DNA from: Spirogloea muscicola | Lineage: Eukaryota; Streptophyta; Zygnematophyceae; Spirogloeales; Spirogloeaceae | DNA length: 64,000 nt | NCBI GenBank assembly: GCA_009602725.1 | Contig: WELB01000043.1 | Location: forward strand, 431,224 to 495,223 | Direction of reading: 5' to 3' | Shown here: positions 28,291 to 51,581 of the stretch, in pieces | Position numbering within the stretch: the first letter of the stretch is position 1 | Layout: each line of letters starts with the position of its first letter | Made by a program: the position numbers and the translations under genes | The notes under the pieces: model-generated | What the model saw: the letters and a program-made list of their open reading frames with translations, nothing else | Database searches by the model: none | Told to the model about the DNA's origin: nothing

Positions 28291-28299
28291 ATGACATCA

Positions 28300-28940
28300 C
28301 AAGTAATTTTCTTGCTGACGGGCTCGAGCATGCAGTAGCGCAAAAGGAGTTAGCTGTAAGCACAGCAACACGCAAGAAATACATGCTCTCACCCTGTGAT
28401 AGTGGCGTGGCTGCAGGAGTCGAACCCACATAGCAGGTAAAGATTTGTCTACATGGACTAGCAGCACGACTGCTGGCAGGACGAAGCAAGTATGATCACA
28501 ACCGACACCGAAGACCAAGGCGCCCTCCTCCTAAGGCCATCAATAGGAGGAGAGGCATGCCAAGGCGACTGGGCTTCACGTTGCACACTAAGAGTTGCAT
28601 GTCCCGGTGGCTCCGAGGACAGCCACCTCAAGCTGCATCGCCTGAAGCTGGTGATCCAGCAAAGCTACGCGGGCTTGCAGGTCGGCCATGCCCATGCATG
28701 CATGGCGATTATGGGCATGGGCATGGTCGACCTGCAAGCCGACGTGGCGTCGTAGCAGCATCAGCTTCAGGCGACGCAGCTTGAGGTGGCTGTCCTCAGG
28801 GCCACCCTGGCGACATGCAACACTCGGGGGCATCGTGTAGCCCAGTCGCCTTCGCGTGCACTCCTCCTATTCATGGCTTTAGAAATTGAGAGCTTCTTGT
28901 GCTGAGGTGTCTAGCAATACTTGCTTCGTCCTGTCAAAAG
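28300..28940. repeat. Small palindrome of two ORF A 3' ends, head to head
   Basis: The left arm (about 28310-28695) is the ORF A segment tail in reverse, including tgctgacgggctcgagcatgcagta and the coding end. The right arm (about 28715-28940) is the same coding end forward: DLQADVAS, QHQLQATQLEVAVLRATLATC, then ctagcaatacttgcttcgtcc. The arms meet near 28705 around atgcatgcatgg. Both are diverged and neither is a full gene. Confidence 0.75.
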
Positions 28941-29345
28941 TCGTCGGGAGCAGCCCGAGCCTGCAACAGCTTCGGTCGCCCACGCCGCCAGTCACTCGGC
29001 GGCCAGGCCGAAGATGCGGGACGCCATGGCTCGCTCGCGGCGGCGGTGTCGGGGCCGGCGCCCGGGGCAAGGCTTCGGCCCTGCTTTCGGGAGCAATGTC
29101 GCGGCAGCAGTGGCGCCGGTGGCGGCGGCGGCGGTTTCGGAGGCAGCAGGCAGGGCTGCTGCGGCGGGCGCAGGCGGCGGCGGCAGAAGACTCACGACCT
29201 TTGTCCGCGGCGCTGGCGACGCCTCCGACGGTGGCAGCGCTGGCCGGCTGCGCTGGTGCTGGCGTCAGGCTTCGCGCGGCGGCAAGCGTCGTGACGTCTG
29301 CGCGGCGCTGGCGGCAGGGCTGCGACGGCACTAGCGCTACCAAGG
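28941..29345 (-). pseudogene. Degenerate ORF A 5' half
   Basis: Reads like the reverse complement of the ORF A N-terminal region: gtcgtcgggagcagcccgagcctg, gcccacgccgcca, gcggccaggccgaagatgcgggacgccatgg, compare 34345-34440. It then runs into the GCC/GGC-rich leader type seen at 40490-40640. The frame is not maintained. Confidence 0.55.
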
Positions 29346-29990: not shown

Positions 29991-30129
29991 GCCAGCAGCA
30001 GCCACAGCGGCAGCAGCGGCAGCGGCGACGGCAGCAGCTCCACACGGGAGCCGCAGCAGATCCCCGCAAGGCGTGACAGTGGCGGCTGCGACTTGCAGCG
30101 ATTCCCTGTGCGCTTCGTCTTTGAACACC

Positions 30130-31960
30130 AGCACAGATGGCAGAGCTCAAAACTGTACATGGTATCAGAGGCTTGGTGGCCGCAATCGAACGCTTTGAGG
30201 GCAAGGACTGGCGAATGTGGCGGATGAAGCTCGAGATGACTCTCTGCGCATACCTGCTCTGGAGCGTCGTGCTAGGGGAAGGACCGGCATCCGATGCGCC
30301 GGAGAAAGCCTCTCAGGAGTGGGAGGAGCACAACGCGATCGTCCTAGCCTTCTTAATTAATAGCCTGGATCAGCATCACCTCACTCAGATTGTGCCAGCA
30401 GGCACTGCTGCAGAAGCTTGGGGAAAGCTGGTGTTATTTTGTGAACCAACAGGCCAACAGAAGATGCTGGCGGTGCAGCAGAGGCTTCTGAACTTCCAGA
30501 TGCAGGAGGGAGCAAAGCTGGCAGAGCACCTTACAGATTTCAAGCGCCTCGTAGATGAGATGGGAGGCAATTGGAGCAAGCATGGAGGCAAGTCTGAAGA
30601 GCTTCCAGGTGAAGATCCTCCTCAACAGCTTGAAGCACATTCCCAGGTTCAACACTGTTATCACCCTCCTGGACAGTGTGGAGGACGAGAAGCGCAGCCT
30701 GGAGTTCGTGCGGGGAAGATTGTTGCAGGAGGAGAAGAGGGCCCAAGAGAGAGGAGAGGAGACTGAGGCCAAGGCATCAGCAATGCTGGGTCAAGTGGAC
30801 ATAGGCATGGGTCACAGGCCTGGCTTTCAGGGTCAGGACGGAGGACAGGGAGCTGTCCGTGCCAGCAGAGGTGCCTGCCAATTCTGCAGAAAGCAGGGTA
30901 AATGGAAGGCTCAGTGTCCAGCTCTACGAGCGAAGCTGCAAAGGGACAGGTCACACGCTGCGCAAGGGGAGTACACCAGCATTTTCTACTCCGCAGCCAC
31001 AGGTGAAACACGTTCAGAAACTCGTGAATACAACTCGTGGTTGGTTGACTTAGGAGCAAGTGCACACATGACTTGCAGAAGGGAGTGGCTGCGGGAGTAT
31101 AAGGAGGTCAAGAACTGCCGTGTCTCTTCGGGGAACAGTACTGCCGCAGTTGCTGTGGGGAAGGGCTCGGTGGACATAGTTGCTCAAGTTGCTGGCAAGA
31201 CCTTGAAGATCACTTTGCATGATGTCCTCCATGTTCCTCATTTGGCTAGAAATCCCTTGTCCGAGAACAGCCTCAACAGCCAGAAGCTTCGACTTGTGTT
31301 CGATCCACAGGGCTGCACGATCCTCAGTAGAGATGGAGAGGTGGCTGCCGTGGAGGAGAGGAGTGGTGGACTCTGCTGGCTTGTGGGTGAGGGCTTGATG
31401 TCGGGAAGTCAATGTCAACGTGGTGGTAGCGAACAAGAACGACAACCTGCAGCTGTGGCATCGCAGGCTGGGACATCTGAATGGTGAAGCTCTCAAGGAG
31501 GTGAGTCAACAACAGCTCGTGAGAGGCTTGGCGCTTGGACTTGATGGTCAGCTTAATTTTTGTGAAGGGTGTGTGCTTGGAAAGCAGCATCGAAGTCCCT
31601 TTCCTGCAGGGGGAGCCAAGAGAGCAAGCAGTCTTCTGGAGTTGGTGCACACAGATGTCTGGGGTCCAGCGCCAGTTCCATCACTTGGAGGTGGGAAGTA
31701 CTTTGCGACCTTCATTGACGACATGTCACGGAAATGATGGTGCTACATACTCAAGGAGAGGTCGAGTGTGTTTCAGATCTTCCAGAGAGGGCGTGCTGGA
31801 GTGGAAAAGCGAGTGGGCAGACCGGTGGAGGTGCTTCGCTCCGACAACAGTGGGGAGTACGTGTCCAACATTCTGTACCCCTTCGTGCCTGCATCGTACC
31901 CCACAAAGATGGCCTTGGTGCTCTTGGGATTCAGGTTTGAAGTTTGAGAGATACTATTTA
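30130..31960 (+). mobile_element. Ty1/Copia retrotransposon fossil (gag to early integrase)
   Basis: Parts in order: a UBN2-type gag (about 30140-30760), a CxxC...C nucleocapsid-like knuckle (about 30880), an aspartic protease with DLGASAHMT (about 31050), the gag-pre-integrase region with HRRLGHLN (about 31450), and the first part of an integrase with HTDVWGP (about 31650). The reverse transcriptase and RNase H are missing. A primer-binding-like tggtatcagag at 30160-30170 suggests a 5' LTR edge just upstream, but I found no LTR pair. It is broken, with several interruptions, and looks moderately old. Confidence 0.85.
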
Positions 31961-32477: not shown

Positions 32478-33480
32478 GCATGGAGTCGGCTACAAGTGCA
32501 CCACCAAGCCCTCCTCCGCAAGTACCTCCTCCTGAAATAGAGGACGTCGTCAACGACCTAGCGCAGCTCCGTGCACCTGGCCCGGATGGGCTGACTTCTA
32601 AATCGGTGCGGCGCCTTGCGCGCCTGAAGGAGCAGTTGGAGACTGCCGTTCCCGGTGGGGAATCGCTGGCGGATCCTGTGTGGGGGATATTATGCGCCGA
32701 GGTTCGGACCCTGATTGCCCGGATGTGTGCGGGTGAGGAACGGATCCAACGCCTCAAGGCCAAGGTCAGCCATGGCGCTCGGCTGGGCCGTGCCCAGCCA
32801 TGCCAGCCAGCCAAATTCAGTGGGCAGGGCAGTCTCGCCGCGTGGTTGAGAGAAATGATGGCCTTTGTGAGGCACCATCGGTGTCTCGACTTGGGATCGC
32901 TGCCACATATCTGACTGGTGATCCTGCCACATGGTGGGAGTCTGTGAAGCTATTCTCTACCCCCAGTGTTTTAATACGTGGGATTTCTTCACGAGGTCGT
33001 TGACTTCTATGTAAGGCGAAGTCCACACGGAGCTGAAGGCTCGCAATCGATGCAATCCGCATGCGAGGAGACGACTTCGAGGACTACGTCCAGCGGTTTC
33101 ATATGCTGCTGGTGAAGTGTGGGTCCATGGACGCCAAGGACCAAGTACGGCGCTTTGAGGCTAGTCTGCCACAGCACATAGCGGTGATGTCGCAGGTGGA
33201 CAACACTACCTTCCAGCCGGTGACGACCTTGGAGAAGCTCATTGAGCAAGCTCGTCAGTCGTACGCAATGTACCCAACGCGCAAGCGATTCCTCCGGGAG
33301 GAAGATGGGGACAAGTCAGGGCCGTCATCCGCAAAGCACTTCAAGCCCAAGTCCGGGTTCAAGCCAGGTGGTAGGTCTGGGCCACCATCGCGGTCGGCGC
33401 CAGCCAAGGCCCCCCCCCGCCGAGTTCTCGGCCCCCCGTGTTCTCGGCCTCCCGTGGGGGATCATGCAATGACCCTGTGA
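32478..33480 (+). mobile_element. Ty3/Gypsy-type gag fossil
   Basis: Retrotransposon gag features: AKFSGQGSLAAWLREM near 32810, LTGDPATWW near 32910, and a C-terminal gag region with an ARQSYAMYPTRKRF-like basic stretch near 33250. No protease, reverse transcriptase or LTR was seen. The element is broken in a few places and ends abruptly at about 33465-33480, where ORF A tail sequence begins. Confidence 0.75.
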
Positions 33481-33593
33481 TAGGGCGTTGGCTGCAGGAG
33501 ACCAGCCTGATATAGCGGGTAGAATTTTGCCTACATGCGCTAGCAGCACGACTGCTGACAGGACGAAGCTAAGTATTGCTACACCTTCGACAC

Positions 33594-34439
33594 CTAAGCA
33601 CAGGACGCCCTTCTCCTCAGAGGAGAGCAGTCACTGAGTGCGACTGGGCTGTGGCATTTCCCCAGGGTGGCCCTGAGGGCAGCCACCTCCAGGTGCATCG
33701 CCCGAAGCTGATGCTGCTGCGACGCTACATCGGCTTCCAGGTCGCCCATGCGACTGCCAGCGGCGCGCAGCAGCCACTGCGCGCCCGCAAGCTCGGACCT
33801 GAGCGTGGAGGCCGCAGCCTGCGCCGCCTGCGCATCGGCGTGCGCCTGCTGGCGGCTCGCCTGCAGCTGCCCTGTCAGGTCTAGGCAGCAGCCTTGAAGG
33901 TACTTGGCCTGCTGGTACAGGCCCTCAGTCTCCTCCGTGCTGCTGCGCGCGGTGTGTCGAAGCTGCTTGTTGTCGTCCAGCACTCGCAGGCCCCACGCGA
34001 CGAGCTCGTCGCGCTCCACCGCCGTCTCCTCGGCGTACCGCTGCCAGGTCGCGGCCAGCTGTGCCGCTTCCTCCACCTCGACACGCAGCAGCAGCGCGTC
34101 GTTGAGCGCGTCCGCAAGGCAGCAGGCGGCTTGCCATGCCGCCTCTACAGGAATGGACTGCCGGGTGGCTGCAGAGGTCGCCCTCCTGGGGCTCGACAGC
34201 TGGCGGCGGCAGCCTCTGCTGTCGGTGGAGACTGTCAATGGGTCGCCATCGGCTCGCTCGGCGCACGCAGCCGCGGGAAGCACGCCGCGCCTCTCGCTCT
34301 CGGAGGCGTGCGACGATGCCATGGCCGCCCGGGGGCTCGTGGTCGTGGGGAGCAGCCCGAGCCTGGAGGCGGCTGCGCAGGCCTCGGTGGCCCACGCCGC
34401 CACGAACGCGGTGGCCAGGCCCAGAAGGCCGGACGCCAT
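33594..34439 (-). CDS. ORF A, left distal copy (281 codons), unknown function
   Basis: Starts MASGLLGLATAFVAAWATEA and ends LRRRASCA-stop. Length is 846 nt, identical to the two right-arm copies, although by hand alignment it differs from them at roughly 56 of 281 residues. The N-terminus has a short hydrophobic helix (about 4-24). Residues 30-95 are Ser/Arg-rich and look disordered. From about 95 to 265 the sequence is alpha-helical and Glu/Gln/Leu-rich, with probable coiled coil (DDNKQLRH..., QDHQLQAMHLEVAALRAT in the other copies). No transposase, polymerase or nuclease motif is visible. An N lies just outside at 34462. I do not recognise the family. Confidence 0.55.
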   Translation of the reverse strand: MASGLLGLATAFVAAWATEACAAASRLGLLPTTTSPRAAMASSHASESERRGVLPAAACAERADGDPLTVSTDSRGCRRQLSSPRRATSAATRQSIPVEAAWQAACCLADALNDALLLRVEVEEAAQLAATWQRYAEETAVERDELVAWGLRVLDDNKQLRHTARSSTEETEGLYQQAKYLQGCCLDLTGQLQASRQQAHADAQAAQAAASTLRSELAGAQWLLRAAGSRMGDLEADVASQQHQLRAMHLEVAALRATLGKCHSPVALSDCSPLRRRASCA

Positions 34440-34764
34440 GACCGGCGCGGCTGCAGCGGCGNAGTGGGAGGAGGAGGAGGGGGGGGCTTCAGGCCGCCTC
34501 GGGCAGCGTGGCGGGAGCCGGTTTCCCGCGCAGGCCGTTGCCCCGGGCGCGGCATTGGCCCACGGATTGGATTCGGCGCCCCGTCCCGCTCTGCGATCAG
34601 TGGCCCCGCACCGCCCAAGCTCCCGCCTTGGCCCTTCCGGCCCGGCTGCCCACGCTCCCCCGGCGACCCGGCCGAAAGCCGTCCTGCCCCGAGGCCGCAC
34701 GTCCGCCCGGGCCGCGGACGCCGCTCCCACATGGGAAACAGCTCTGGAATCAGCAAAGGGGATA

Positions 34765-35255
34765 GAGGAATGCAGCACCGTACTTGCAGTAAAACTGCAT
34801 GCAACTGCACAAGTCAGTATGATGGTAACTATCAAGCCAATAGGAACTTCATAGGACACCATTTGTGCGGCGGATCATCATGCCTCCAAAAGAGCATACT
34901 CTAAATATGCAGACCAACCTGCTGTTAAGATGCCATATGCGCCCAAAAGAGGAGATAGCAAATAAACACGTACTCCTACACTAAAATCAGATAATACCAT
35001 ACCGTAATCAGAGGAATCACTTCCCGGGCTACTGAACAGTACATGATAGAAAGTACAAGAGCCATTAGTACGATGAAGAGGTTTGCAGTATCAGGCAGGT
35101 CAATTTACTGATTTGATCTGAAACGATCTGCTAGAGGCTGTGGTTATCCGAACAAGCCTACGACATCAGTCCCCTCACTTCGTTGCATGGAGGCCATCAA
35201 CTTGCTCAGCTGATACCAAGAAAGCAACTTCTAGCAGTAGTGGTATGATGATTCA
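34765..35255 (-). pseudogene. nad1: nad1 fragment, left arm (mitochondrial-derived)
   Basis: Reads towards the left with AQ-MVSYEVPIGLIVTIILT at about 34800-34865, preceded by the SxGVYGI-type region and, further right, the MASMQR...VVGLFG region. These are signature NADH dehydrogenase subunit 1 segments. It stops abruptly after FADS, where ORF A leader sequence is joined directly. Frames are interrupted, as expected of a nuclear copy. Confidence 0.8.
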
Positions 35256-35325
35256 CAGTACCTTCTCGCACATACTTACAAGATACAAGATGTCATTTGC
35301 TTTGATTTCCTCTTTCTTCTATCAT

Positions 35326-36425
35326 CCTCCCCACCAATTGATAGAAACGAATAAGAACAGCCAAATCACATCTACAAATGCCAGTAGTGTGCTGGAGAAA
35401 AATGATGTCTCTCGATAAGTGACCCACGTCTTGGCGCAGACAATATATGCTTAGTAAAACAGCGCCTATATAACGTGAAAGCCATGAGAACCTGTAACGT
35501 CGAGCCATCAATACCATCTCAACTGTCAAGAGGAGCTTCGACATGTTCGATAGCTGGAAAGGCTGTAAAGACGATGGCTAAAACAACGGCAGCTAGTAGA
35601 CCATAGATTGCCTGATCTTCAGTTCCTGCAAGTATTGATGGTGAGCCCATGTGATTTGCAGTAAGAGTACAGCAGTCACGAATGGAGTACCCCAAGGGTC
35701 TAACACCTCACGTTCTTTTAGAGGGCCAAAAAGCTCCAGTTCCTACAGAAGGGGCTGAAGAAGAATGATGCCCAAACCCTAAGGCTACAAAGAAACTTTT
35801 CGTGTATTCGAACAAACGAAGGCCAAATGGCCAAGTACAAAGGGAAGCACATCTAGAGACGTCCATCATCTACAGCAGGTTGACCCGCTCAGTAACCACG
35901 GGTCAATACATTAAGGTCGCTAAACGATGCTTGAATACTGGATGGCGGATACGAAGCCCTTCTGCTAACAACTAGAGCTCGCCCAGCTTTCTGGTGCAAA
36001 GCATTAGCCTGAGCATCCTGCAAACAGGCCGAAACTCATCGTTGCAAGGACAGATATACAGCTGGCAGGCCCATCTCAGCCGGAAACACATCTGCACGTC
36101 GTGCATAGCCTAGATTGGCAAGAAGAAGGTTAGCTCAGACATAGAATATAGGATCATACCATAACGAGGCCGTGCTGCACAGCAGCATGTATGTGGTGAC
36201 CTTCATAAGTAGATACAAGGATCACATCACGCCACCACGCGAAAGCAGTATACAAATAACCAAAGCTTAGAAGCATACCGCCTCCTTGCAATGCATCCAT
36301 GTACATTACACATTCAACGGTCATTGCTAAAGCTCCTGATGAGCCAAGGATGGACCATGGGCTTGATCTACTGATAGAAATGATGTCAATCTCAGATTTT
36401 GCAGATTTGTTGGAGAAGAGACATG
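35326..36425 (-). pseudogene. cox3: cox3 copy with inserted repeat, left arm (mitochondrial-derived)
   Basis: Cytochrome oxidase subunit III signatures read leftwards: [39 protein letters not shown], then (after an insertion of about 370 bp) EVLDPWGTPF, an AIVFTAF-type helix, and finally the FVDVIWLFLFVSINWWGG-type end near 35326. The insertion (about 35870-36110) is a mini-ORF repeat copy, present at the same codon in the right arm. Frames are broken. Confidence 0.85.
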
Positions 36426-36439
36426 ATCGTCTCATGAGA

Positions 36440-37115
36440 CTGCTTCAACTACAATTGGCAGAAAGCCGTGATCGTCTCCACAAATCGCACTGCATTGGTC
36501 ACAGGTGACACCTTCTCTTTTGTTGAAGATAGGTATCTGATTATGGCGACCGGGGACTGCGTCACACTTGACACCTAGAGATGGGACTGCCCAGCTATGA
36601 AGAACATCTGCTGAAGTCAATATCATGCCTAGAGGAGCTTGTGCAGGTACTACTACTCGACTATCTACTTCCACTTAACGTGACTGACCATATTCCAAAC
36701 CATCTTTCCAAACCGTATGACCATTACCATGAATGAATTTAAAGATTGCTCGTCCGAAATATCAAAATATGATGATTTATCAGACCAACACCATGGATTG
36801 CCACTTGCTTTAGATTGCAGCTGAATGTACTTCTTCATCCATAGAGTTCTGAAAAGCAAACGATGGACCGATGTATGAACAATCATAGATAATGTAAACA
36901 GTAAATCCATGGACTTTGGGCTTCTCTCGGAATTTGAATCTCCTTCGTAATGAAAGTGCGCACAAAGTACGAAGTAACACCCATAGTACAAAGAACAGAT
37001 TACATTGTAGAGATAAAAAGACATCGTGAAGCAGATCAATACTCCTTGCATCACAGGAGTAGCTGCACCTTGATAAACATACTGCCAGGGTTCTGGAGCG
37101 TCACGAGAAGTAAGT
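36440..37115 (-). pseudogene. cox2: cox2 copy, left arm (mitochondrial-derived)
   Basis: DAPEPWQYVYQGAATPVMQG begins near 37110. SSYFDISDEQSLN is near 36760. The C-terminal Cu-A domain follows: [45 protein letters not shown] and PIVVEAVS, ending near 36440. Cu-A ligand positions are recognisable. The reading frame changes several times, so it is not expected to make a working subunit. Confidence 0.88.
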
Positions 37116-37228
37116 TGGAAACGCTTAATATTATTTGGTGCTTTCTGGACCTCTTCTGGACCTCCCCCTAGGTTGGATTTGAACCCACGACCCCATAGAG
37201 AGAGGCAGTCATTTCTGTTTGTCTCTTG

Positions 37229-37264
37229 GAACCGTGCTTGCGAAAATGTCCACGCACACGGCTC
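37229..37264 (-). ncRNA. Group II intron domain V, left arm
   Basis: On the minus strand the 36-nt hairpin starts GAGCCGTGTGCG and ends CGCAAGCACGGTTC. It forms an 8-bp lower stem (GAGCCGTG/CACGGTTC), a two-base AG bulge, a 4-bp upper stem (TGCG/CGCA) and a loop. This matches the domain V consensus with its AGC triad. It lies between nad6 and cox2, as an intron remnant of the mitochondrial segment. Confidence 0.75.
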
Positions 37265-37744
37265 TTAAAGTGATTGTTTCCCCTACCTTCTCCACTTTGG
37301 TACTATAAAATTCTGATGACATTCCTGAATTCTTATGATGAAGTTTCTGTACTTCACATTGGACCATGAAGGCTTCAGACATCAGAGACAACATGATCTC
37401 TCCCCTGTTGACAACTCCCCTGTTGACCACACGACTTATCTGTTACCTGCTTTCCTTCTATTTGTTGGACTGTCATCCACAGGCAGCAATGAGTGTCTGC
37501 ACCATGCTGTATTTCCAAGCAAGAGGAGAAGATGAAGAGAACCAGATAACAACGATAAGAGGATCAGTGTAAGGTGCTGTATTACATACGTAATGATGAA
37601 AATGGTTAGCATGACTACTACGTCCTCGATCGATCGATTCAACGCAGTCAACAGCCATCTGCTCTAATGGCCAAGCTCCTACAGGAGCTTGGCCTCCTAC
37701 AGGAGGAGGAAAGGACTCTCAAAGTATCTTTTTAGCCTATGTTG

Positions 37745-38315
37745 ATAAATCTAAAGTCTTTTGCTGAAGAACATCCTGTCTCTCAACTTGAGTGGTCTCA
37801 TGCATAGTCACTACGATAGCGCCACTCCTAGCTACTAAGGATTTTAACCTAGAAACACGAAAGAGAAGAGATGAAGCGGCTTCCAGTACATTCTAACCAC
37901 TTACTGTTTCAGTCCAACTTTCAACTCTGCCAGCATATGAGGTACATATGACACTGTTAGGTTTTCTTGGTATGTGATCACTATCTACAGTACAGTGAAT
38001 GTCCAAAAGAGGAATCAGCCCAGTGACTCCTCCAATAGAGAGACTTTGAAGAGCACTTTCATGAGTCTCAGCAGTCCTGATGTCTAAAGTCGTAAGTACA
38101 AAGAGGGAGTGATACAGCAATAGCTCCTACGTATACTACGAAGAATTTCGTGGCAGGAACATTTAAGTCCTGATGAATGCAGTGAGCCTGAGGTATTGCA
38201 AACCACCAAGATCAAGAAAATAACAGAATGCTCTGGTTTTTTTGCACGTACAAGCGTACTAGCAGAGACTAATGCAATACTGGATATGGGAAAAGGTATC
38301 ATATCCACAAGATTT
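37745..38315 (-). pseudogene. nad6: nad6 copy, left arm (mitochondrial-derived)
   Basis: Signatures read leftwards: ALVSASTLVRAKKPEHSVIFLILVVCNTSG, a YVGAIAV-like region, LDIRTAETHESALQSLSIGGV, YAGRVESWTET, and near 37790 the MHETTQVERQDVF-type end. All are NADH dehydrogenase subunit 6 landmarks. Frames are interrupted. Confidence 0.85.
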
Positions 38316-38394
38316 CTTCATCTATCTTCGTGATTTAGGCCCGCGTTTGCGCTATTATGAAAGCGATGTCCTAACCCCTCGACGGAAGGGACAG

Positions 38395-38468
38395 ACCGCT
38401 TTTGTGCTTGTAGCTCAGATTGGATACAGAACCAGATTACTATAGCCCGAAGGAATGTCAGTCTTCAC
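38395..38468 (+). pseudogene. Truncated mitochondrial tRNA-like 5' half, left arm
   Basis: gcttgtagctcagattggata followed by an anticodon-arm-like ccaga-ttactat-agcc resembles the 5' half of a tRNA. The T arm and acceptor end are absent; the mitochondrial sequence gives way to ORF A segment sequence at about 38468 (atgttgctgcctcc). The mirrored copy is at about 41860-41930. Confidence 0.4.
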
Positions 38469-38792
38469 ATGTTGCTGCCTCCTCTGTGAGAGACCAGCCT
38501 AGTGTAGGTTGAGATCTCTATGCAGGGTCAAATGGACAGCAAGGAGATGTGCTCTCTCCCTATGGTAGTCTGACATCACAAGGAAGCCTTTTTGCTGACG
38601 GGCTCGAGCATGCAGTAGCACGAGAGGGGATAGCTGTAAGCGCAGCAACACAAAAGTATTTCACGCAATCACCCTCCGACTGTGGCGTTGGCTGCAGAAG
38701 ACCAATTCAACAAAGCAGGAGAAAGTCTGCCTACATGGAGTAGCAGCACGACTGCTGACGGGACGGAGCAAGTATTGCTACACCTACGACAC

Positions 38793-39500
38793 CTACGCAC
38801 AAGACGCCCTCCTCCTGAGAGAAAAGCAGTCACTGAGTGCGACCGGGCTGTGGCAAGACCCCAGGGTGGCCCTGAGGGCGGCCACCTCCAGATGCATCGC
38901 CTGGAGCTGGTGATCCTGCGAAGCCACTTTGGCTTGCAGGTCGCGCATGCGACTGTCTGCGACGCGCAGTAGCCACTGTGCGCCCGCAACGTCTGACCTG
39001 AGCGCGGAGGCCGCAGCCTGGGCCGCCAGCGCATCGGCGTGCGCCTGCTGCCGGCACAGCCGTAGCTGCCCTGTCAAGTGTTGGCAGCAGTCTTCAAGGT
39101 ACTTGGCCTGCTGGTACAGGCCGTCAGCCTCCTCCGAGCTGCTGCGCGCGGCGTGTCGAAGCTGCTTGTTGTCGTCCAGCACTCGCAGGCCCCACGCGAG
39201 AAGCTCGTCGCGCTCCACCGCCGTCTCCTCGGCGTAGCGCTGCCAGTCCTCCGCCAGCTGGGCGGCGTGCTCGGCCTCGCGCCGCAGCAGCAGCGCGTCG
39301 TTGAGCGCGTCCGCGAGGCAGCAGGCGGCTTGCCATGCCGCCTCCACGGGGATGCCATGCTCGCTAGCTGCAGAGGTCGCCCTCCGGGGGCTCGACAGCT
39401 GGCGGCCGCAGCCTCTGCGGCCGGTCGAGGCCGTCCTGGGGCCGACGTCGGCCAGCTCGGCGCACGCGTCGGCGCGAAGCACGCCGCGCCTCTCGTGGCC
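38793..39500 (-). pseudogene. ORF A, left proximal copy with N-terminal deletion
   Basis: Retains the ORF A frame from RRGVLRADACAELA through to LRRRASCA-stop and is very close to the right-arm copies. The hydrophobic N-terminus and start codon are missing: near 39500 the frame runs straight into leader sequence (gtggcccacggattggatt), also found at 34557 and 40365. An in-frame upstream ATG at 39569 could still permit translation. Confidence 0.5.
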
Positions 39501-39814
39501 TCCGCGTGGCCCACGGATTGGATTAGGCGCCTCGTCCTGCTCGGCGATCAGTGCCCCCGCACCGCCCAAGCTCCCGCCTTGGCCCTTCCGGCCCGGCTGC
39601 CCACACTCCCCCCGGCACCCGGCCGAAAGCCGTCCTGCCCCGAGGCCGCACGTCCGCTCGGGCCGCGGACGCCGCTCTCACATGGGAAATAGCTCTGCCA
39701 ATGCAAGGCAATGGCTGTGCGAGGCCGGCCCAAAGGACTGTACAAGGTCTGAAAGGGCCGAAAGGCGCCATAAGCAGGAGCCTGTTCTCCAGGACCTCTG
39801 CAAGTGGGCGCGAG

Positions 39815-40080
39815 GTGGTAGCCAGCCTCCACAGCAGAGAATAGTACATGGCCTATCCATTAGTAAGTTGATTGCAAACTCTCCTAAAAGGTCATCTCAT
39901 GTCTTGCGGAAAGTGATCGAGCTCCTTTCGATTGACCAGAAGCAGAAGCGGAGGTAGTACCGGGTTATGATGCAGAGTAGTCTGCTATGGGTGTTGCTCT
40001 TTTCGTTCTTAAAAGAGTTTGCAACCAACATACTTACGGATAGTCCATTTACTATCTTCTTCTGGGGAGGCTGGCTGCCA
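39815..40080. pseudogene. nad1: Palindrome centre: two nad1 3' fragments head to head
   Basis: On the right side (about 39890-40080, +) the sequence matches 45650-45840: an EYS.(M/L)GVALF-like stretch and then TDSPFTIFFWGGWLP, the conserved nad1 region following the EAEAELV loop. On the left side (about 39885-39815, -) the same end is read in the other direction. About 120 bp between the arms is unpaired. Both fragments run directly into ORF A leaders. Confidence 0.75.
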
Positions 40081-40124
40081 ACAGCGCCCACTTGCAGAGG
40101 TCCTGGAGAACAGGCTCCTGCTTA

Positions 40125-40205
40125 TGGCGCATTCCGGCCCTTGTACAGTCCTTTGGGCCGGCCTCTCACAGCCATGGCCTTGCATCGGCAGAACTATTTC
40201 CCATG
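40125..40205 (+). repeat. Hairpin repeat within ORF A leader
   Basis: cggcccttgtacagtccttt then gggccggcctctcacagcc, and ...ggcagaactatttcccatg. The same element occurs at 45890-45965 (+) and 39690-39770 (-). It is the GC-rich version of the dispersed hairpin repeat, positioned 5' of ORF A in three units. Confidence 0.6.
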
Positions 40206-40660
40206 TGGGAGCGGCGTCCGCGGCCCGGGCGGACGTGCGGCCTCGGGGCAGGACGGCTTTCGGCCGGGTGCCCGGGGGAGCTTGGGCAGCCGGGCCGGAA
40301 AGGCCAAGGCGGGAGCTTGGGCGGTGCGGGGCCACTGATCGCAGAGCGGGACGGGGCTGCCGAATCCAATCCGTGGGCCAATGCCGCGCCCGGGGCAACG
40401 GCCTGCGCGGGAAACCGGCTCCCGCCACGCTGCCCGAGGCGGCCTGAAGCTCCCCCCCCCCCCTCCTCCCACTCTCTCGCCGAGCGCCCCTCCGCCGCCG
40501 CTGCCACCGCCGCCGCCGCCGTCGTCCGCCGCCGCCGCCGCCAAGGGCCTCTGCTTCTGCGACGTTGGTCCCAAGCAGGGACAGCGCCTGCACCAGCGCC
40601 GCGCCTTCCACCGCCGCCGGCCGCCGCGCCGACCGCCTCGCCGCTGCAGCCGCGCCAGTC

Positions 40661-41506
40661 ATGGCGTCTGGTCTTCTGGGCCTGGCCACCGCGTTCATGG
40701 CGGCGTGGGCCACCGAAGCCTGCGCAGCCGCCACCAGGCTCGGGCTGCTTCCCACGGCCACGAGCCCCCGGGCGGCCATGGCATCGTCGCACGCCTCCGA
40801 GAGCGAGAGGCGCGGCGTGCTTCGCGCCGACGCGTGCGCCGAGCTGGCCGAAGTCGGCCCCGGGACGGCCTCAAGTGGCCGCAGAGACCGCGGCCGCCAG
40901 CTGTCGAGCCCCCGGAGGACGACCTCTGCAGGCAGTGAGCATGGCATCCCCGTGGAGGCGGCATGGCAAGCCGCCTGCTGCCTCGCGGACGCGCTCAACG
41001 ACGCGCTGCTGCTGCGGCGCGAGGCCGAGCACTCCGCCCAGCTGGCCGAGGACTGGCAGCGCTACGCCGAGGAGACGGCGGTGGAGCGCGACGAGCTTCT
41101 CGCGTGGGGCCTGCGAGTGCTGGACGACAACAAGCAGCTTCGACACGCCGCACGCAGCAGCACGGAGGAGGCTGACGGCCTGTATCAGCAGGCCAAGTAC
41201 CTTGAAGACTGCTGCCAGCGCTTGACAGGGCAGCTACGGCTGTGCCGGCAGCAGGCGCACGCCGATGCGCTGGCGGCGCAGGCTGCGGCCTCCGCGCTTA
41301 GGTCAGACGTTGCGGGCGCGCGGTGGCTACTGCGCGTCGCAGACAGTCGCATGCGCGCCCTGCAAACCCAAGTGGCTTCGCAGGATCACCAGCTCCAGGC
41401 GATGCACCTGGAGGTGGCTGCCCTCAGGGCCACCCTGGGGATATGCCACAGCCCGGTCGCACTCAGTGACTGCTCTTCTCTCAGGAGGAGGGCGTCTTGT
41501 GCGTAG
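40661..41506 (+). CDS. ORF A, right proximal copy (281 codons), unknown function
   Basis: Intact frame from MASGLLGLATAFMAAWATEA to LRRRASCA-stop, 846 nt. The frame stays open upstream to 40565, but the ATG at 40661 is conserved in position across copies and precedes the shared hydrophobic helix. Residues 95-265 look helical (VEAAWQAACCLADALNDALL, ERDELLAWGLRVLDDNKQL). It lies 3' of nad1 sequence and is followed by a 340-nt tail shared by all copies and by the debris at 28.3 kb. Long open frames on the other strand and in other frames here reflect the high GC content. Confidence 0.6.
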   Translation: MASGLLGLATAFMAAWATEACAAATRLGLLPTATSPRAAMASSHASESERRGVLRADACAELAEVGPGTASSGRRDRGRQLSSPRRTTSAGSEHGIPVEAAWQAACCLADALNDALLLRREAEHSAQLAEDWQRYAEETAVERDELLAWGLRVLDDNKQLRHAARSSTEEADGLYQQAKYLEDCCQRLTGQLRLCRQQAHADALAAQAAASALRSDVAGARWLLRVADSRMRALQTQVASQDHQLQAMHLEVAALRATLGICHSPVALSDCSSLRRRASCA

Positions 41507-41845
41507 GTGTCGTAGGTGTAGCAATACTTGCTCCGTCCCGGCAGCAGTTGTGCTGCTACTCCAAGTAGGCAGTCTTTCTCCTGCTTTATTGAATTGGTCT
41601 TCTGCAGCCAACGCCACTGTCAGAGCGTGATTGCGTGAAATCCTTTTGTGTTGCTGCGCTTACAGCTATCCCCTCTCGTGCTACTGCATGCTCGAGCCCG
41701 TCAGCAGAAAGGCTTCCTTGTGATGTTAGACTACCTTAGGGAGAGAGCACATCTCTTTGCCGTACATTTGACACTGCATAGAGATCTCAACCTATCTGAA
41801 ATGCACTAGGCTGGTCTCTCACAGAGGAGGCAGCAACATATGAAT

Positions 41846-41935
41846 ACTGACGTTCTTCCGGGCTATAGTAGTCTGGTTCTGTATCCAAATCTGAGCTACA
41901 AGCACAAAAGCGGTTTGTCCCTTCCGTCTAGGGAT
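41846..41935 (-). pseudogene. Truncated mitochondrial tRNA-like 5' half, right arm
   Basis: Mirror of 38395-38468, read on the minus strand as gtagctcagatttggatacagaaccagactactatagcccg. It sits exactly at the junction with the ORF A segment end at about 41845. Confidence 0.35.
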
Positions 41936-42009
41936 TAGGACATCGCTTTTTAACAGCGCAAACGCGGGCCTAAATCACGAAGGTAGATAAAAAAATCTTG
42001 TGGATATGA

Positions 42010-42590
42010 TACCTCTTATATCCAGTATTGCATTAGTCTCTGCTAGTACGCAGAGACTAATGACTAATGCGTACAACCGCTTGTACGTGCAAAAAAACCA
42101 GAGCATTCTGTTATTTTCTTGATCTTGGTGGTTTGCAACACCTCAGGCTCACTGCATTTATCAGGACTTAGATGTTCCTGCCACGAACTTCTTGGTAGTA
42201 TACATAGGACCTATTGCTGTATCACTCCCTCTTTGTACATATGACTTTAGACATCAGGACTGCTGAGACTCATGAAAGTGCTCTTTAAAGTCTCTCTATT
42301 GGAAGAGTCACTGGGCTGATTCCTCTTTTGGACATTCACTGTACTGTAGATAGTGATCACATACCAAGAAAATCTAACTGTGTCATGTGCACCTCATATG
42401 CTGGCAGAGTTGAAAGTTGGACTGAAACAGTAAGTGGTTAGAATGTACTGGAAGCCGCTTAACCTCTTCTCTTTCGTGTTTCCAGGTTAAAATCCTTAGT
42501 AGCTAGGAGTGGCGCTATTGTAGTGACTATGCATGAGACCACTCAAGTTGAGAGACAGGATGTTTTTCAGCTAAAGACTTTAGATTTATC
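42010..42590 (+). pseudogene. nad6: nad6 copy, right arm (mitochondrial-derived)
   Basis: Same landmarks as the left copy: KPEHSVI-type start, TAETHESAL, a SYAGRVESWTET region and MHETTQVERQDVF near 42530. Compared with the left arm it carries a small extra segment near 42055-42085 (a short duplication of agactaatg). Frames are interrupted. Confidence 0.83.
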
Positions 42591-43057
42591 AATATAGGCT
42601 AAGAAGATACTTTGAGAGTCCTTTCTGTAGGAGCTTGGCCATTAGAGCAGATGGCTGTTGACTGCGTTGAAACGATCGATCGAGGACGTAGTAGTCATGC
42701 TAACCATGTTCATCATTATGTATGTATTACAGCACCTTACACTGATCCTCTTATCGTTGTTATCTGGTTCTCTTGTCATCTTCTCCTCTTGCTTGGGAAC
42801 ACAGCATGGTGCAGACATTTATTGTTGCCTGTGGATGACAGTCCAACAAAAAGAAGGAAAGCAGGTAACAGATAAGTCGTGTGGTCAACAGGGGAGTTGT
42901 CAACAGGGGAGAGATCATGTTGTCTCTGATGTCTGAAGCCTTTATGGTCAAATGTGAAGTACAGAATCTTGATCAAAAGAATTCAGGAATGTCATCACAT
43001 TTTATAGTACCAAAGTGTAAAAGGTAGGGGAAACAATCACTTTAATGGCAACTTTAA

Positions 43058-43093
43058 GAGCCGTGTGCTTGGACATTTTCGCAAGCACGGTTC
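43058..43093 (+). ncRNA. Group II intron domain V, right arm
   Basis: Starts GAGCCGTGTGCTTGGAC and ends CGCAAGCACGGTTC. The lower stem is perfect; the upper stem is weakened relative to the left copy (CTTG where the left has CGTG). It sits upstream of cox2. Confidence 0.7.
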
Positions 43094-43217
43094 CAAGAGA
43101 CAAACAGAAATAACTGCCTCTCTCTATGGGGTCGTGGGTTCAAATCCAACCTAGGGGGACCTCCAGAAGAGGTCCAGAAAGCACCAAACAATATTAAGAG
43201 TTTGCAACTTACTTCTC

Positions 43218-43890
43218 GTGACGCTCCAGAACCCTGGCAGAATATTATCAAGGTGCAGCTACTCCTGTGATGCAAGGAGTACTGATCTGCATCGCGATGT
43301 CTTTTTATCTCTAAAATGTAATTTGTACTTGTACTATGGCTGTTACTTCGTGCTTTGTGCGCACTTTCATTACGAAGGAGATTCAAATCCCAAGAGAAGC
43401 CCAAAGTCCATGAATTTACTATTTACAGTATCTATAATTGTTCATTCATCGGTCCATCTTTTGCTTTTCAGAACTCTATGGATGAAGAAGTACATTCAGC
43501 TGCAATGTGAAGCAAGTGGCAATCCATGGTGTTGGTCTGATAAATCATCATATTTTGATATTTCGGACGAGCAATCTTTAAATTCATTCATGGTAATGGT
43601 TATACGGTTTCGAAAGATGGTTTGGGAGACGGTTAGTCACGTTACGTGGAAGTAGATAGTCGAGTAGTAGTACCTGCACAAGCTCCTCTAGGCATGATAA
43701 TGACTTCAGCAGCTTCATAGTTGGGCAGTCCCATCACTAGGTGTCAAGTGTGACGCAGTCCCCAGTCGCCATAATCAGACTTCTATCTTCAACAAAAGAG
43801 AAGGTGTCTACTGTGACCAATGCAGTGCGATTTGTGGAGACGATCAGGGCTTTCTGCCAATTGTAGTTGAAGCAGTCTCATAAGACGATC
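43218..43890 (+). pseudogene. cox2: cox2 copy, right arm (mitochondrial-derived)
   Basis: DAPEPWQ at about 43221, SDKSSYFDISDEQSLNSF near 43530, then the Cu-A domain in changing frames, including TSAD, PSLGVKC and [11 protein letters not shown]. Interrupted, as in the left copy but with different point changes. Confidence 0.85.
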
Positions 43891-43919
43891 ATGTCTCTTC
43901 TCCAACAAATCTGCAAAAC

Positions 43920-45013
43920 ATGAGATTGACATCATTTCTATCAGTAGATCCAAGCCCATGGTCCATCCTTGGCTCATCAGGAGCTTTAGCAATGACCGTT
44001 GAATGTGTAATGTACATGCATGCATTGCGAGGAGGCGGTATGCTTCTCAGCTTTGGTTAATTGTATACTGCTTTCGCGTGGTGGCGTGATGTGATCCTTG
44101 TATCTACTTATGAAGGTCACCACACACATGCTGCTGTGCAGCACGGCCTCGTTATGGTATGATCCTATATTCTATGTCTGAGCTTACCTTTTTCTTTGCC
44201 AATCTAGGCTATGCACGACGTGTAGATGTGTTTCCGGCTGAGATGGGCGTGCCAGCTGCATATCTGTCGTTCTTGCGACGACGAATTTCGGCCTGTTTGC
44301 AGCGTGCTCAGGCTAATGCTTTGCACCAGAAAGCTGGGCGAGCTCTAGTTGTTAGCAGAAGGGCTTCGTATCTGCCATCCAGTATTCAGGCATCATTTAA
44401 CGACCTTAATGTATTGACCCGTGGTTACTGAGCGGGTCAACCTGCTGTAGATTATGTACGTCTCTAGATGTGCTTCCCTTTGTACTTGGCCATTTGGCCT
44501 TCGTTTGTTTCGAATACACGAAAAGTTTCTTTGTAGCCTTAGGGTTTGGGCATCAGACTTCTTCAGCCCCTTCTGTAGGAACTGGAGCTTTTTGGCCCTC
44601 TGAAAGAACGTGAGGTATTAGACCCTTGGGGTACTCCATTCGTGACTGCTGTACTCTTACTTTCTTCTGGAGCTGCAAATCACATGGGCTCACCATCAAT
44701 ACTTGCAGGAACTAAAGAGCAGGCAATCTATGGTCTACTAGCTGCTGTTGTTTTAGCCATCGTCTTTACAGCCTTTCCAGCTATCGAACATGTCGAAGCT
44801 CCTCTTAACAGTTGAGATGGTATTGATGGCTCGACGTTACAGGTTCTCATGGCTTTCACGTTATCATAGGCGCTGTTTTACTAAGCATATATTGTCTGCG
44901 CCAAGACGTGGGTCACTAATCGAGAGACATCATCTTTCTCCAGCACACTACTGGCATTTGTAGATGTGATTTGGCTGTTCTTATTCGTTTCTATCAATTG
45001 GTGGGGAGGATGA
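43920..45013 (+). pseudogene. cox3: cox3 copy with inserted mini-ORF repeat, right arm
   Basis: [15 protein letters not shown]-like start, [17 protein letters not shown] at about 44075, LSELTFFFAN at about 44170, then the insertion (about 44205-44580). Next come EREVLDPWGTPF, SSGAAN...GTKEQAIYGLLAAVVLAIVFTAFPAIEH and FVDVIWLFLFVSINWWGG-stop at about 45013. The inserted block encodes YLSFLRRRISACLQRAQANA...KAGRAL and ends LTRGY-stop. Insertion point and content are the same in both arms. Confidence 0.87.
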
Positions 45014-45084
45014 TAGAAGAAAGAGGAAATCAAAGCAAATGACATCTTGTATCTTGTAAGTATGTGCGAGAAGGTACTGTGAAT

Positions 45085-45845
45085 CATCATACCACTACTG
45101 CTAGAAGTTGCTTTCTTGGTATCAGCTGAGCAAGTTGATGGCCTCCATGCAACGAAGTGAGGGGACTGATGTCGTAGGCTTGTTCGGATAACCACAGCCT
45201 CTAGCAGATCGTTTCGGATCAATGTTTCAGGAACTTAAACTGCCTGATACTGCAAACCTCTTCATCGTACTAATGGCTCTTGTTCTTTCATGTACTGTTC
45301 AGTAGCCTGGGAAGTGATTCCTCTGAATACGGTATGGTATTATCTGATCGTAGTGTAGGAGTACATAATCATCTGCTATCTCATCTTTTGGGCGCATATG
45401 GCATCCTACAGTTTTGCCCTCAGGCGTCTCGCAAGGACATACGTATCCCCTCTGGCTCTTGTTGAGAGCAGGTTGGTCTAGACATTTAGAGTATGCCCTT
45501 TCGGGGGCATGATGATCCGCCGCACCAATGGTGTCCTAAGAAGTTTCTGTTGGCTTGATAGTTACCATCATACTGACTTGTGCAGTTTCATGCAGTTTTA
45601 CTGCAAGTACGGTGCTGCATTCCTCTATCCCTTTGCTGATGCCAGTGGTCATCTCATGTCTTGCGGAAAGTGATCGAGCTCCTTTCGATTGACCAGAAGC
45701 AGAAGCGGAGGTAGTACCCGGTTATGATGCAGAGTACTCTGCTATGGGTGTTGCTCTTTTCGTTCTGAGGAGAGCTTGCAACGTACCAACGTACTTATGG
45801 ATAGTCCATTAACTATTTTCTTTTGGGGAGGCTGGCTGCCAACAG
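45085..45845 (+). pseudogene. nad1: nad1 copy, right arm (mitochondrial-derived)
   Basis: EVAFLVSAEQVMASMQR, DVVGLFG, QPLADRF, KLPDTANLFIVLMAL, YGMVLSDRSVGV, GAYGI, then an MVSYEVPIGLIVTIILT region (shifted frame near 45530), AEYSAMGVALFVL near 45735, and SPLTIFFWGGWLP ending at about 45838. ORF A leader sequence follows immediately. Confidence 0.85.
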
Positions 45846-46421
45846 CGCCCACTTGCAGAGGTCCTGGAGAACAGGCTCCTGCTTATGGCGCCTTCCGGCC
45901 CTTGTACAGTCCTTTGGGCCGGCCTCTCACAGCCATGGCCTTGCATTGGCAGAACTATTTCCCATGTGGGAGCGGCGTCCGCGGCCCGGGCGGACGTGCG
46001 GCCTCGGGGCAGGACGCCTTTCGGCCGGGTGCCCGGGGGAGCGTGGGCAGCCGGGCCGGAAGGGCCAAGGCGGGAGCTTGGGCGGTGCGGGGCCACTGAT
46101 CGCAGAGCGGAACGGGGCGCCGAATCCAATCCGTGGGCCAATGCTCCGCCCGGGGCAACGGCCTGCGCGGGAAACCGGCTCCCGCCACGCTGCCCGAGGC
46201 GGCCTGAAGCTCCCCCCCCCTCCTCCTCCCACTCTCTCGCCGAGCGCCCCTCCGCCGCCGCTGCCACCGCCGCCGCCGCCGTCGTCCGCCGCCGCCGCCG
46301 CCGCAGGGCCTCTGCTTCTGCGACGTTGGTCCCAAGCAGGGACAGCGCCTGCACCAGCGCCGCGCCTTCCACCGCCGCCGGCCGCCGCGCCGACCGCCTC
46401 GCCGCTGCAGCCGCGCCAGTC

Positions 46422-47267
46422 ATGGCGTCTGGTCTTCTGGGCCTGGCCACCGCGTTCATGGCGGCGTGGGCCACCGAAGCCTGCGCAGCCGCCACCAGGC
46501 TCGGGCTGCTTCCCACGGCCACGAGCCCCCGGGCGGCCATGGCATCGTCGCACGCCTCCGAGAGCGAGAGGCGCGGCGTGCTTCGCGCCGACGCGTGCGC
46601 CGAGCTGGCCGAAGTCGGCCCCGGGACGGCCTCAAGTGGCCGCAGAGACCGCGGCCGCCAGCTGTCGAGCCCCCGGAGGACGACCTCTGCAGGCAGTGAG
46701 CATGGCATCCCCGTGGAGGCGGCATGGCAAGCCGCCTGCTGCCTCGCGGACGCGCTCAACGACGCGCTGCTGCTGCGGCGCGAGGCCGAGCACTCCGCCC
46801 AGCTGGCCGAGGACTGGCAGCGCTACGCCGAGGAGACGGCGGTGGAGCGCGACGAGCTTCTCGCGTGGGGCCTGCGAGTGCTGGACGACAACAAGCAGCT
46901 TCGACACGCCGCACGCAGCAGCACGGAGGAGGCTGACGGCCTGTATCAGCAGGCCAAGTACCTTGAAGACTGCTGCCAGCGCTTGACAGGGCAGCTACGG
47001 CTGTGCCGGCAGCAGGCGCACGCCGATGCGCTGGCGGCGCAGGCTGTGGCCTCCGCGCTCAGGTCCGACGTTGCGGGCGCGCAGTGGCTACTGCGCGTCG
47101 CAGACAGTCGCATGCGCGACCTGCACGCCCAAGTGGCTTCGCAGGATCACCAGCTCCAGGCGATGCACCTGGAGGTGGCTGCCCTCAGGGCCACCCTGGG
47201 GATATGCCACAGCCCGGTCGCACTCACTGACTGCTCTTCTCTCAGGAGGAGGGCGTCTTGTGCGTAG
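46422..47267 (+). CDS. ORF A, right distal copy (281 codons), unknown function
   Basis: Same length and frame as the copy at 40661-41506 and nearly identical to it; differences include QAVASAL for QAAASAL and MRDLHAQVAS for MRALQTQVAS. The frame is open far upstream (to 45885) through the GC-rich leader, which explains a longer 460-codon reading; the conserved ATG at 46422 is preferred. The tail after the stop is shared with the other units to about 47607 (ggaggcagcaaca), where the repeat ends. Confidence 0.6.
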   Translation: MASGLLGLATAFMAAWATEACAAATRLGLLPTATSPRAAMASSHASESERRGVLRADACAELAEVGPGTASSGRRDRGRQLSSPRRTTSAGSEHGIPVEAAWQAACCLADALNDALLLRREAEHSAQLAEDWQRYAEETAVERDELLAWGLRVLDDNKQLRHAARSSTEEADGLYQQAKYLEDCCQRLTGQLRLCRQQAHADALAAQAVASALRSDVAGAQWLLRVADSRMRDLHAQVASQDHQLQAMHLEVAALRATLGICHSPVALTDCSSLRRRASCA

Positions 47268-47607
47268 GTGTCGTAGGTGTAGCAATACTTGCTCCGTCCC
47301 GTCAGCAGTCGTGCTGCTACTCCATGTACGCAGACTTTCTCCTGCTTTGTTGAATTGGTCTTCTGCAGCCAATGCCACTGTCAGAGGGTGATTGCGTGAA
47401 ATCCTTTTGTGTTGCTGCGCTTACAGCTATCCCCTCTCGTGCTACTGCATGCTCGAGCCCGCCAGCAGAAAGGCTTTCTTGTGATGTTATCATGGCGAAA
47501 GAGCTCACCTCCTTGCTGTACATCTTGACACTGCATAGAGATCTCAACTTGTTGAAATGCGATATGCTGGTACCTCACATAGGAGGCAGCAACATGAAAG
47601 TTGAGGG

Positions 47608-48703
47608 TATTTGCGCTGGGCCTATTTTCGTGCATTTGCTTGTATGCCAAATTCATGAACAAGTAGAATCTCGTGCCACGCTTATTGCATCGTCTTGCTC
47701 TCAGGTGCCAAAATGACCTGCGGTGAAATGCTTTCTGGTTAATGATTACATCTGTAGGATTGGTACTGCCTGGTCCTAGATGATCCCCATGGGCAGCCCA
47801 GAGCCTAGGCCCTGGCAATCTACTTGTGTCTTTCTGTCGATTCCTTCTTATCAGTGCATCATTCCTTCGCTCCTGCGCACAGTAACAGGGGGAGAGAACA
47901 ATTACTGCTTGGCTTGCTATGGCATGAACAAGAAAGTGGATTGCACTTGCATGTGCGATAATGTTATATGATGGGAGCATCAATGCTGTGAGAAAGGCGG
48001 TTTGACGGATGCTTGGAGAGGCTAGCAGCTAGCAGCAGGCGTGCTAATGGGGATGGCGAAATCACAATCAGTGGCGCGCGGCGTGTAGCTGCACAAAGAC
48101 GGCAACGGATATTGACCCTTGTGGAAAAGAGAATTTTCCAGTATCTTCCAGTGGATGGCTGTGGTTGGCCAGCCCAGAAGGCTCCCAGGTGATGGTAGAC
48201 CTTGTCTCTCATCGGTGGAGGCTAGGAGGCAGCCAATGTGCTAGATCGTGCCCTTTCGTGGATGTAAACTGCCTGCCGGAGCAGGCAAGCATATAGCCAG
48301 TGGGTTGTGATAGCTGTAGCACTGCAAATCTCATTTTGACGAAGGCATCAGCAATGCCTTGGTGGCAGTTGCAATCCGGGTTAAAATGATGCCCTGTGGT
48401 GTGCTGGGGATGACCAGTTTTGTCAAGTAGCCTTGTCATACCTGACCTCGAATCTGCAATTTCGGCGGGGGCTTAAAGCTTATGACAATTGGCTGCAATG
48501 TTGCTTTTCCAGCAAAAGCAGACTAGACTACCAGGTTTCATCAGCAACAATCACGAAGATTCAAGAGTACATTGGGTTGGTTGACCTTTGCTGCTGATTG
48601 TCTCATTCATGCGACTTCAGATCGTGCTACGGGCCATGTTAAGCTTTCTCACTTACAAGGAAGGATCACAAAAAGTAAAACAAATACAGCACAAGGTGGA
48701 ATA
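47608..48703. other. Unassigned stretch right of the inverted repeat
   Basis: No gene recognised. The sequence returns to moderate GC immediately after the repeat edge. It probably contains the 3' flank of the minus-strand CDCA7-like gene. Confidence 0.55.
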
Positions 48704-50940: not shown

Positions 50941-51344
50941 GGCGGGACGCCGGGAGGACGGGGGGGGCAGTGCGGCTTTCTGGGCGCTGCGCGACGCGAG
51001 CTTCCCGCCAAAAACGGCTGAGCTCCCGCCAAATCGGGTGCCCTTGGGCCTGCTCCCGCGGTGGCGGGGGCCTTTTTCACGCCTTCCAGGCCTTCGTTCT
51101 TTCTTTAGCGCTTCAGCCCTTCAGCGCATTGCCTTCCAACTCTGTAGTTTGCCCCGCGCCTCATTTGCGGACATGGCAACAAGTGACGCGTTCGACCGGG
51201 CCAACCCCACCTCCAAGGCAGGGCTGCAGTCGCCAGTGCCTCTCGAGGCAAGGAAGGCAATATGCTGATCATCCGCCGAAGGACAACGTCCTTCCCCTTG
51301 CCATCGACGTCCACGGGGCGCTCGGTGGCTCGAGCTCCTGCACG

Positions 51345-51581
51345 GGCTAGCGCGCAGTGCTGTGTCCCGACCTTACCAGGAAGCAGGCCGATTTTCACGC
51401 GGCAGGCTCTCTCGCCTCCAGGTGTATCGCATGCGCCTGTCAGGGTCGTTGCCGGGGCCAATGGAACACGCGTTGCATCTGCGTGCCGGTCGTGCTTTGG
51501 CTGCAGCCTCTAGCTATAGACAAGGGACTTGCTACCTGGAGACGCTTCCCTGACCGGCGGCTGCTCAACAGGGAAAATTGA
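51345..51581 (+). repeat. Mini-ORF repeat copy 1 of the 51-53 kb cluster
   Basis: Encodes GRLSRLQVYRMRLSGSLPG...LHLRAGRALAAA and ends DRRLLNREN-stop. About 100 bp after the stop comes a hairpin-repeat copy (51640-51705). Confidence 0.65.

Follow-up and report, generated by a model that had tools for sequence, protein, structure and literature searches.

On contig C43 of the Spirogloea muscicola genome (WELB01000043.1), mitochondrial genes alternate with copies of an open reading frame, ORF A, in an array that turns back on itself, and the question is how such a composite locus arose. A sequence-only reading had suggested that it could be a new kind of amplified chimeric element. The window analyzed here is the whole stretch of 64,000 nucleotides, G000:C43:431224-495223, from a genome of 153 Mb in 471 contigs in which C43 accounts for 796 kb. 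The light-harvesting protein family has 68 matches there, which marks the organism as a photosynthetic eukaryote. Positions given below without a contig name are those of the window.

Layout of the inverted array

Four copies of the ORF A region, LO (left-outer; 33,462-34,746, interrupted by an N), LI (38,489-39,885), RI (40,083-41,850) and RO (45,844-47,607), are arranged around two mitochondrial blocks. The left arm lies on the minus strand. From its outer end inwards, it first shows the 3' part of LO (33,462-34,461), which contains an open 281-residue frame (33,597-34,439) and is 85-88% like the other three copies. A single N at 34,462, in a CCG-rich tract, separates it from the 5' part of LO (34,463-34,746), which is 96.5% like RI and RO and in which both the nad1 tail and ~100 bp at the start of the ORF A region are missing. 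The left mitochondrial block (34,747-38,488) comprises a tRNA-like stretch, a questionable nad6 and pseudogenes of cox2, cox3 and nad1, and includes a ~330-bp dispersed repeat in cox3 (approximately 35,796-36,118). LI, also on the minus strand, has the nad1 tail at its 5' side and matches the ORF A protein over residues 48-281 with no stops.

Between the arms lies a single-copy spacer (39,886-40,013, limits approximate) made of nad1 sequence in the right-arm orientation. The right arm, on the plus strand, starts with a nad1 tail ending in the codons GGWLP (39,890-40,082), followed by RI with its open 281-residue frame (40,661-41,503). The stop-broken right mitochondrial block (41,851-45,843) then carries a tRNA-like stretch, a questionable nad6, a second tRNA-like stretch with a group II intron end, cox2, cox3 and nad1. 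RO, with an open 281-residue frame at 46,422-47,264, closes the arm and is joined to a native 3' flank. This continuation of the ORF A unit (47,608-49,312) has a chromodomain frame on the minus strand (48,704-49,312).

The repeat search and self-BLAST gave a direct repeat with a spacing of 5,761 bp in the right arm, versus 5,199 in the left. A 5.76-kb direct repeat, first read in each arm, is therefore right for the right arm, and the left arm reproduces it imperfectly. The inverted arms (34,744-39,495 versus 45,645-40,804) are 92% identical over 4,884 aligned columns including gaps in self-BLAST, and the main repeat pairs have BLAST E values of 0, far beyond chance. Self-BLAST and the alignment of the joins place the inversion centre at ~120-130 bp, as the proposed centre of ~120 bp had it. 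The right arm starts at the nad1 equivalent of 45,647 and the left arm at the equivalent of ~45,768, and because of these different starting points a centre of ~128 bp is left in single copy. At the inversion point, microhomology could not be clearly made out. Elsewhere in the window, an LTR retroelement with copia-type gag and Pol beta-barrel domains lies near the array (30,125-31,484), and ankyrin repeats and Mind bomb SH3 repeats at 2,780-3,643 and 7,064-8,545 apparently belong to host genes.

The mitochondrial block and its decay

When three frames of positions 41,840-45,843 were translated with stops as X, Pfam recognized COX2 (1.3e-21), NADHdh (2e-29) and, in two frames, COX3 (9.8e-20 and 3.1e-10). 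The gene content first read as nad6-cox2-cox3-nad1 thus stands for the last three genes. For nad6 there was no Pfam match at E<=0.05 in the mitochondrial block; by eye, the sequence around 42,190 looks similar to it. ARAGORN with the bacterial code found no tRNA, and the tRNA-like stretches are judged by eye. The stretch resembling a group II intron end (43,056-43,127, plus strand) scored 27.1 bits (E 0.021), below the Rfam gathering score of 40, and its surroundings are read, by eye only, as a split tRNA.

The right block contains 63, 55 and 68 stops in its three frames (1,334 codons per frame), and its cox3 is interrupted by the ~330-bp dispersed repeat (44,196-44,524, plus strand) with a possible target-site duplication, TTTCTTTG, noted by eye. 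This repeat dominates similarity searches with the whole block, as 49 of the 51 listed matches fall within it (40 of 2,897 first-look candidates scored). It occupies the identical position in cox3 in both arms, and 156 of the 177 stop triplets of the right block (three frames, repeat included) are common to both arms, from which it follows that much of the decay is older than the duplication of the arms.

Mitochondrial origin is indicated by the Pfam matches, and nuclear location by the 796-kb contig and by the copia-type gag, ankyrin and Mind bomb SH3 frames in the window. With the 55-68 stops per frame and the repeat inserted in cox3, the block is non-functional and decaying. By these sequence features the mitochondrial part is an old, decayed NUMT (nuclear mitochondrial DNA), of which our preferred explanation requires no function. 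Fragments of this kind are common in the genome of this alga. One mitochondrial-fragment search listed 42 matches, 40 of them outside the array at 67-93% identity (31 of the 40 at 80% or less), and a second also listed 42, with 37 outside C43 at 72-97%. Judged against the ORF A matches listed, 36 of the 40 and 36 of the 37, respectively, are without ORF A within ~5 kb. A COX3 family search gave 21 matches, none spanning the whole family.

ORF A copies and their joins to mitochondrial DNA

A search with the ORF A protein (46,422-47,264) listed at least 43 matches in the genome. Seven of them span residues 1-281 free of stops (three on C43, one at C89:76.7 kb and three on C127), and an eighth full-span match carries two TGA codons (C127:295.8 kb). 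On C127, ORF A coding parts start at 285.3, 291.2 and 295.8 kb. In an alignment of seven open copies (RO, RI, LO, L043, L044, L047 and L049), the others are 78-98% identical to RO, and the first twelve residues are invariant. Relative to RO, RI, LI and LO have no indels, L043 and L047 have only indels in multiples of three, and other indels occur in L041, L044, L045, L046, L049, L050, L053, L057 and L066; in L044 and L049 the frame is open despite indels not in multiples of three. Pairwise dN/dS among the seven copies, which were picked for open frames, ranges from 0.40 to 0.86 in 20 of 21 pairs and reaches 1.05 for RO/RI, which would be compatible with mild constraint at most. Pfam returned only matches below the cut-off for ORF A, and the two matches from a PDB search, both weak, are to designed repeat proteins (E 0.017 and 0.077).

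Judged from these alignments, ORF A represents a family of nuclear genes, of which C89 and C127 carry intact members. Those on C127 and at C89:76 kb pass into native flank, and native copies extend beyond 47,607 and end between 48,554 and 49,177. The chromodomain frame in this region (Pfam E 6.7e-8) is less well kept in other ORF A copies. Two further pieces of the family surroundings were noted. A decayed, partly palindromic ORF A remnant at 28,043-29,028 adjoins a copy of the ~330-bp repeat, and the segment upstream of ORF A at 45,844-45,961 is part of a dispersed repeat family of which eight copies were aligned (40 of 179 first-look candidates scored). The possibility that one retroelement surrounds the array, with the chromodomain frame and a frame at 33,061 that resembles gag (Pfam E 0.064, below the cut-off) as its parts, was considered and found no support.

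ORF A directly follows the nad1 codons GGWLP in three of the four copies (RO, RI and LI), as first noted. At this join (45,843), nad1 stands in place of the 5' flank that is common to L050 and L066/L068. On the other side, at 47,607, native copies run on and head towards the chromodomain frame where the array turns to mitochondrial DNA, and RI and LI switch to a tRNA-like stretch. The early observation that the ORF A tail meets such a stretch therefore holds for RI and LI, with the tRNA-like call itself made by eye only. A 201-bp probe over the nad1/ORF A join was spanned in 3 of 41 listed matches, all in the C43 array (40 of 179 first-look candidates scored). Of the remaining listed matches, 37 lie on the ORF A side and one, on C22, on the nad1 side. 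Many matches start near 45,844 because the left half of the probe is nad1, and position 45,844 was rejected as the fixed 5' end of a dispersed repeat, since native copies continue upstream. Insertion of ORF A as a transposon into nad1 was likewise set aside: no further nad1 was found at Pfam E<=1 in 47,500-53,502, a weak negative covering the three plus frames and one of the three minus frames of 47,500-51,999 (not that of the chromodomain), so that the minus strand was hardly tested.

Mitochondrial and ORF A sequences occur together outside the array in three places (C89:299.7 kb, C89:117-119 kb and C66:118.5-122.2 kb). One of them, L041 (C89:298.4-300.5 kb; its first 1,500 bases are N), aligns across the ORF A/tRNA join over 2,237 columns at 79%, although unevenly. 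Its ORF A part is 87-90% identical to the array (90% to RO in the core), and its flank is of native type and may, by eye, keep ~20 native bases more than the array. The mitochondrial part is only ~70% identical, differing at 236 of 780 sites from the right block and at 232 of 761 from the left, whereas the two arms differ from each other at 34 of 771 sites over the same stretch. By this comparison, the join on C89 may either be anciently related to that of the array or have arisen separately. In addition, C66:118.5-120.0 kb aligns with C89:299.8-301.2 kb over 1,457 columns at 75%; the alignment includes the mitochondrial piece and thus indicates an older common duplication. On both contigs the mitochondrial piece stops near the equivalent of 42,690, and no second join was seen. 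In L079 (C66:118001-121600) and L041, the piece is followed at ~42,690 by a reversed fragment of the repeat that resides in cox3. In L051 and L061 (C89:117440-121530), pieces of cox2, the chromodomain region, cox3 and inverted ORF A are combined in a mosaic.

Copy divergence and origin of the array

Over 3,668 ungapped sites, the mitochondrial arms show 163 differences (94 transitions and 69 transversions; K2P 0.046), and they also differ by indels of up to 56 bp, which bears out the view that their divergence argues against an assembly mirror. The differences are unevenly spread, with one 300-bp stretch showing only 2 in 299. Segmental duplications are copies longer than 1 kb and more than 90% identical. 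The arms are of this kind, with the 163 differences in 3,668 sites and 92% identity when gaps are counted. Among the ORF A copies, RI and LI differ at 83 of 1,382 sites. Between RI and RO there is a single difference in the 749 sites of 46,236-46,985, compared with 4 in the 149 sites immediately before and 18 in 143 towards the 3' end. Of the three-way ORF A sites, 63 group RI with RO, 27 group RI with LI and 21 group RO with LI; in the last 143 sites, RI groups with LI against RO at 15. This mosaic of RI, RO and LI would fit exchange between copies or gap filling during assembly.

LO stands apart, differing from RO at 133 of 999 sites on the 3' side of the N and at 11 of 285 on the 5' side. 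It is without ~165 bp of CCG-rich DNA at the N and without ~300 bp around the nad1/ORF A join. The N at 34,462, where identity to the other copies jumps from ~86% to 96%, is probably an unclosed scaffold gap, in which case the left edge of the array would not be continuous sequence. Single Ns also stand 44-154 bases before the ORF A ATG in L043, L044, L046, L047 and L049, and the 87 loci retrieved contain 25 single-N runs (18 once overlaps between loci are allowed for), which fall mostly within low-complexity or GC-rich sequence.

We consider it probable, with good confidence, that a NUMT came to lie within an ORF A cluster and was then duplicated in tandem and in inverted orientation. A mitochondrial fragment reaching from a tRNA to nad1 (~3.7 kb without the later repeat) would have lodged at a nuclear ORF A cluster, perhaps captured during break repair. 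There it would have replaced whatever separated the 3' flank of one ORF A from the 5' flank of the following copy. Both native flanks are seen to continue in other ORF A copies. The NUMT would then have decayed and gained the ~330-bp repeat in cox3, before a block of mitochondrial DNA plus ORF A was duplicated in tandem. Subsequently, the segment comprising nad1 tail, ORF A, mitochondrial DNA and ORF A would have been copied in reverse, with a short spacer within nad1 as the pivot, presumably by fold-back or template-switch repair. Later exchange between copies, or assembly gap filling, would have made parts of RI and RO near-identical, and ORF A would be a nuclear gene family carried along. 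Some observations run counter to this account. The simple RI and LI grouping holds only at the ORF A 3' end, and the three outside places are more than one simple event predicts and would need older duplications or further captures in addition. The C89 copy also fits awkwardly, with an ORF A part close to that of the array, a divergent mitochondrial part and a flank of native type; a single event common to C89 and the array is therefore less clear, which slightly lowers our confidence.

A mobile or self-amplifying element made of mitochondrial genes and ORF A would account for the joint occurrence of both parts at C89:117-119 kb and on C66, and for an ORF A/tRNA join at a nearly identical place at C89:299.7 kb. 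We nevertheless regard it as very improbable. Among the listed probe matches the nad1/ORF A join belongs to the array only, the C89 and C66 pieces end near 42,690 without a second join, the intact ORF A copies on C127 and at C89:76 kb continue into native flank, and the right mitochondrial block is broken in every frame. Of the two joins, only that of ORF A to the tRNA recurs elsewhere (C89), so that the dispersed unit with two constant ends that would mark a transposable element was not seen among the matches listed. That NUMT fragments are common could suggest that each arm received its own mitochondrial insertion rather than a later copy of one. This has next to no likelihood for the two arms, which have the tRNA-side and nad1-side joins as well as most stop triplets in common and for which the common repeat insertion contradicts it; the pieces on C89 and C66 may be separate insertions.

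A partial assembly artefact, in which scaffolding or gap filling created the left-outer join and possibly the near-identical tract of RI and RO, is a possible if unlikely contributor and is compatible with our preferred duplication history. It draws on the exact coincidence of the N with the identity jump and the missing ~165 bp, on the recurrence of single Ns and on the near-identity of RI and RO over part of their length. On the other hand, the core of the array (34,463-47,607) is free of N, and the differences between the arms are unexpected of one mirrored contig. It is also conceivable, although rather improbable, that ORF A clusters are break-prone sites that recurrently capture organelle DNA and spread it by segmental duplication. 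This idea arises because the three outside places carry mitochondrial parts of very different divergence, and it gains slightly from the C89 join being less clearly one event with the array.

Comparable histories are known. As described in the part of PMC2820518 available, NUMTs amplify after insertion by tandem or segmental duplication and have no transposition mechanism of their own; the domestic cat NUMT (7.9 kb, tandemly amplified to 38-76 copies) likewise forms a direct repeat of nuclear mitochondrial DNA. Unlike that case, the array here has few copies, is strongly decayed, includes a nuclear gene in each unit and has one arm inverted. The 641-kb NUMT on Arabidopsis chromosome 2 resembles it in that insertion was followed by nuclear duplication after divergence had begun, with possible gene conversion, but it is far larger and little diverged, and the available portion of PMC9071559 describes no nuclear gene in the duplicated unit. 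Human fold-back inverted duplications also place inverted copies around a single-copy spacer; as excerpted in PMC3907307, these are large chromosomal events with spacers of mostly a few kb, compared with ~128 bp here, where the mechanism is inferred. Among titles and abstract beginnings no published report of this array was recognized, although a search without the species name says little.

The first reading was correct in seeing more here than a simple organelle insertion, in that a NUMT was joined to ORF A and the chimeric joins were duplicated and inverted. The proposed new kind of amplified chimeric element gives way to a decayed NUMT and a nuclear gene family, with a nad1/ORF A join confined to the array among the matches listed. 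A NUMT co-duplicated with a nuclear gene family is a known kind of which this is a new example. The locus advises caution on two counts: insertion plus segmental duplication can account for mitochondrial genes that stand, repeated and inverted, next to an unknown frame, and what looks like the edge of such an array can on one side be a gap in the assembly. At the same time, it offers a readable case of co-duplication of a NUMT with a nuclear gene family, in which the common repeat insertion helps to order the events.
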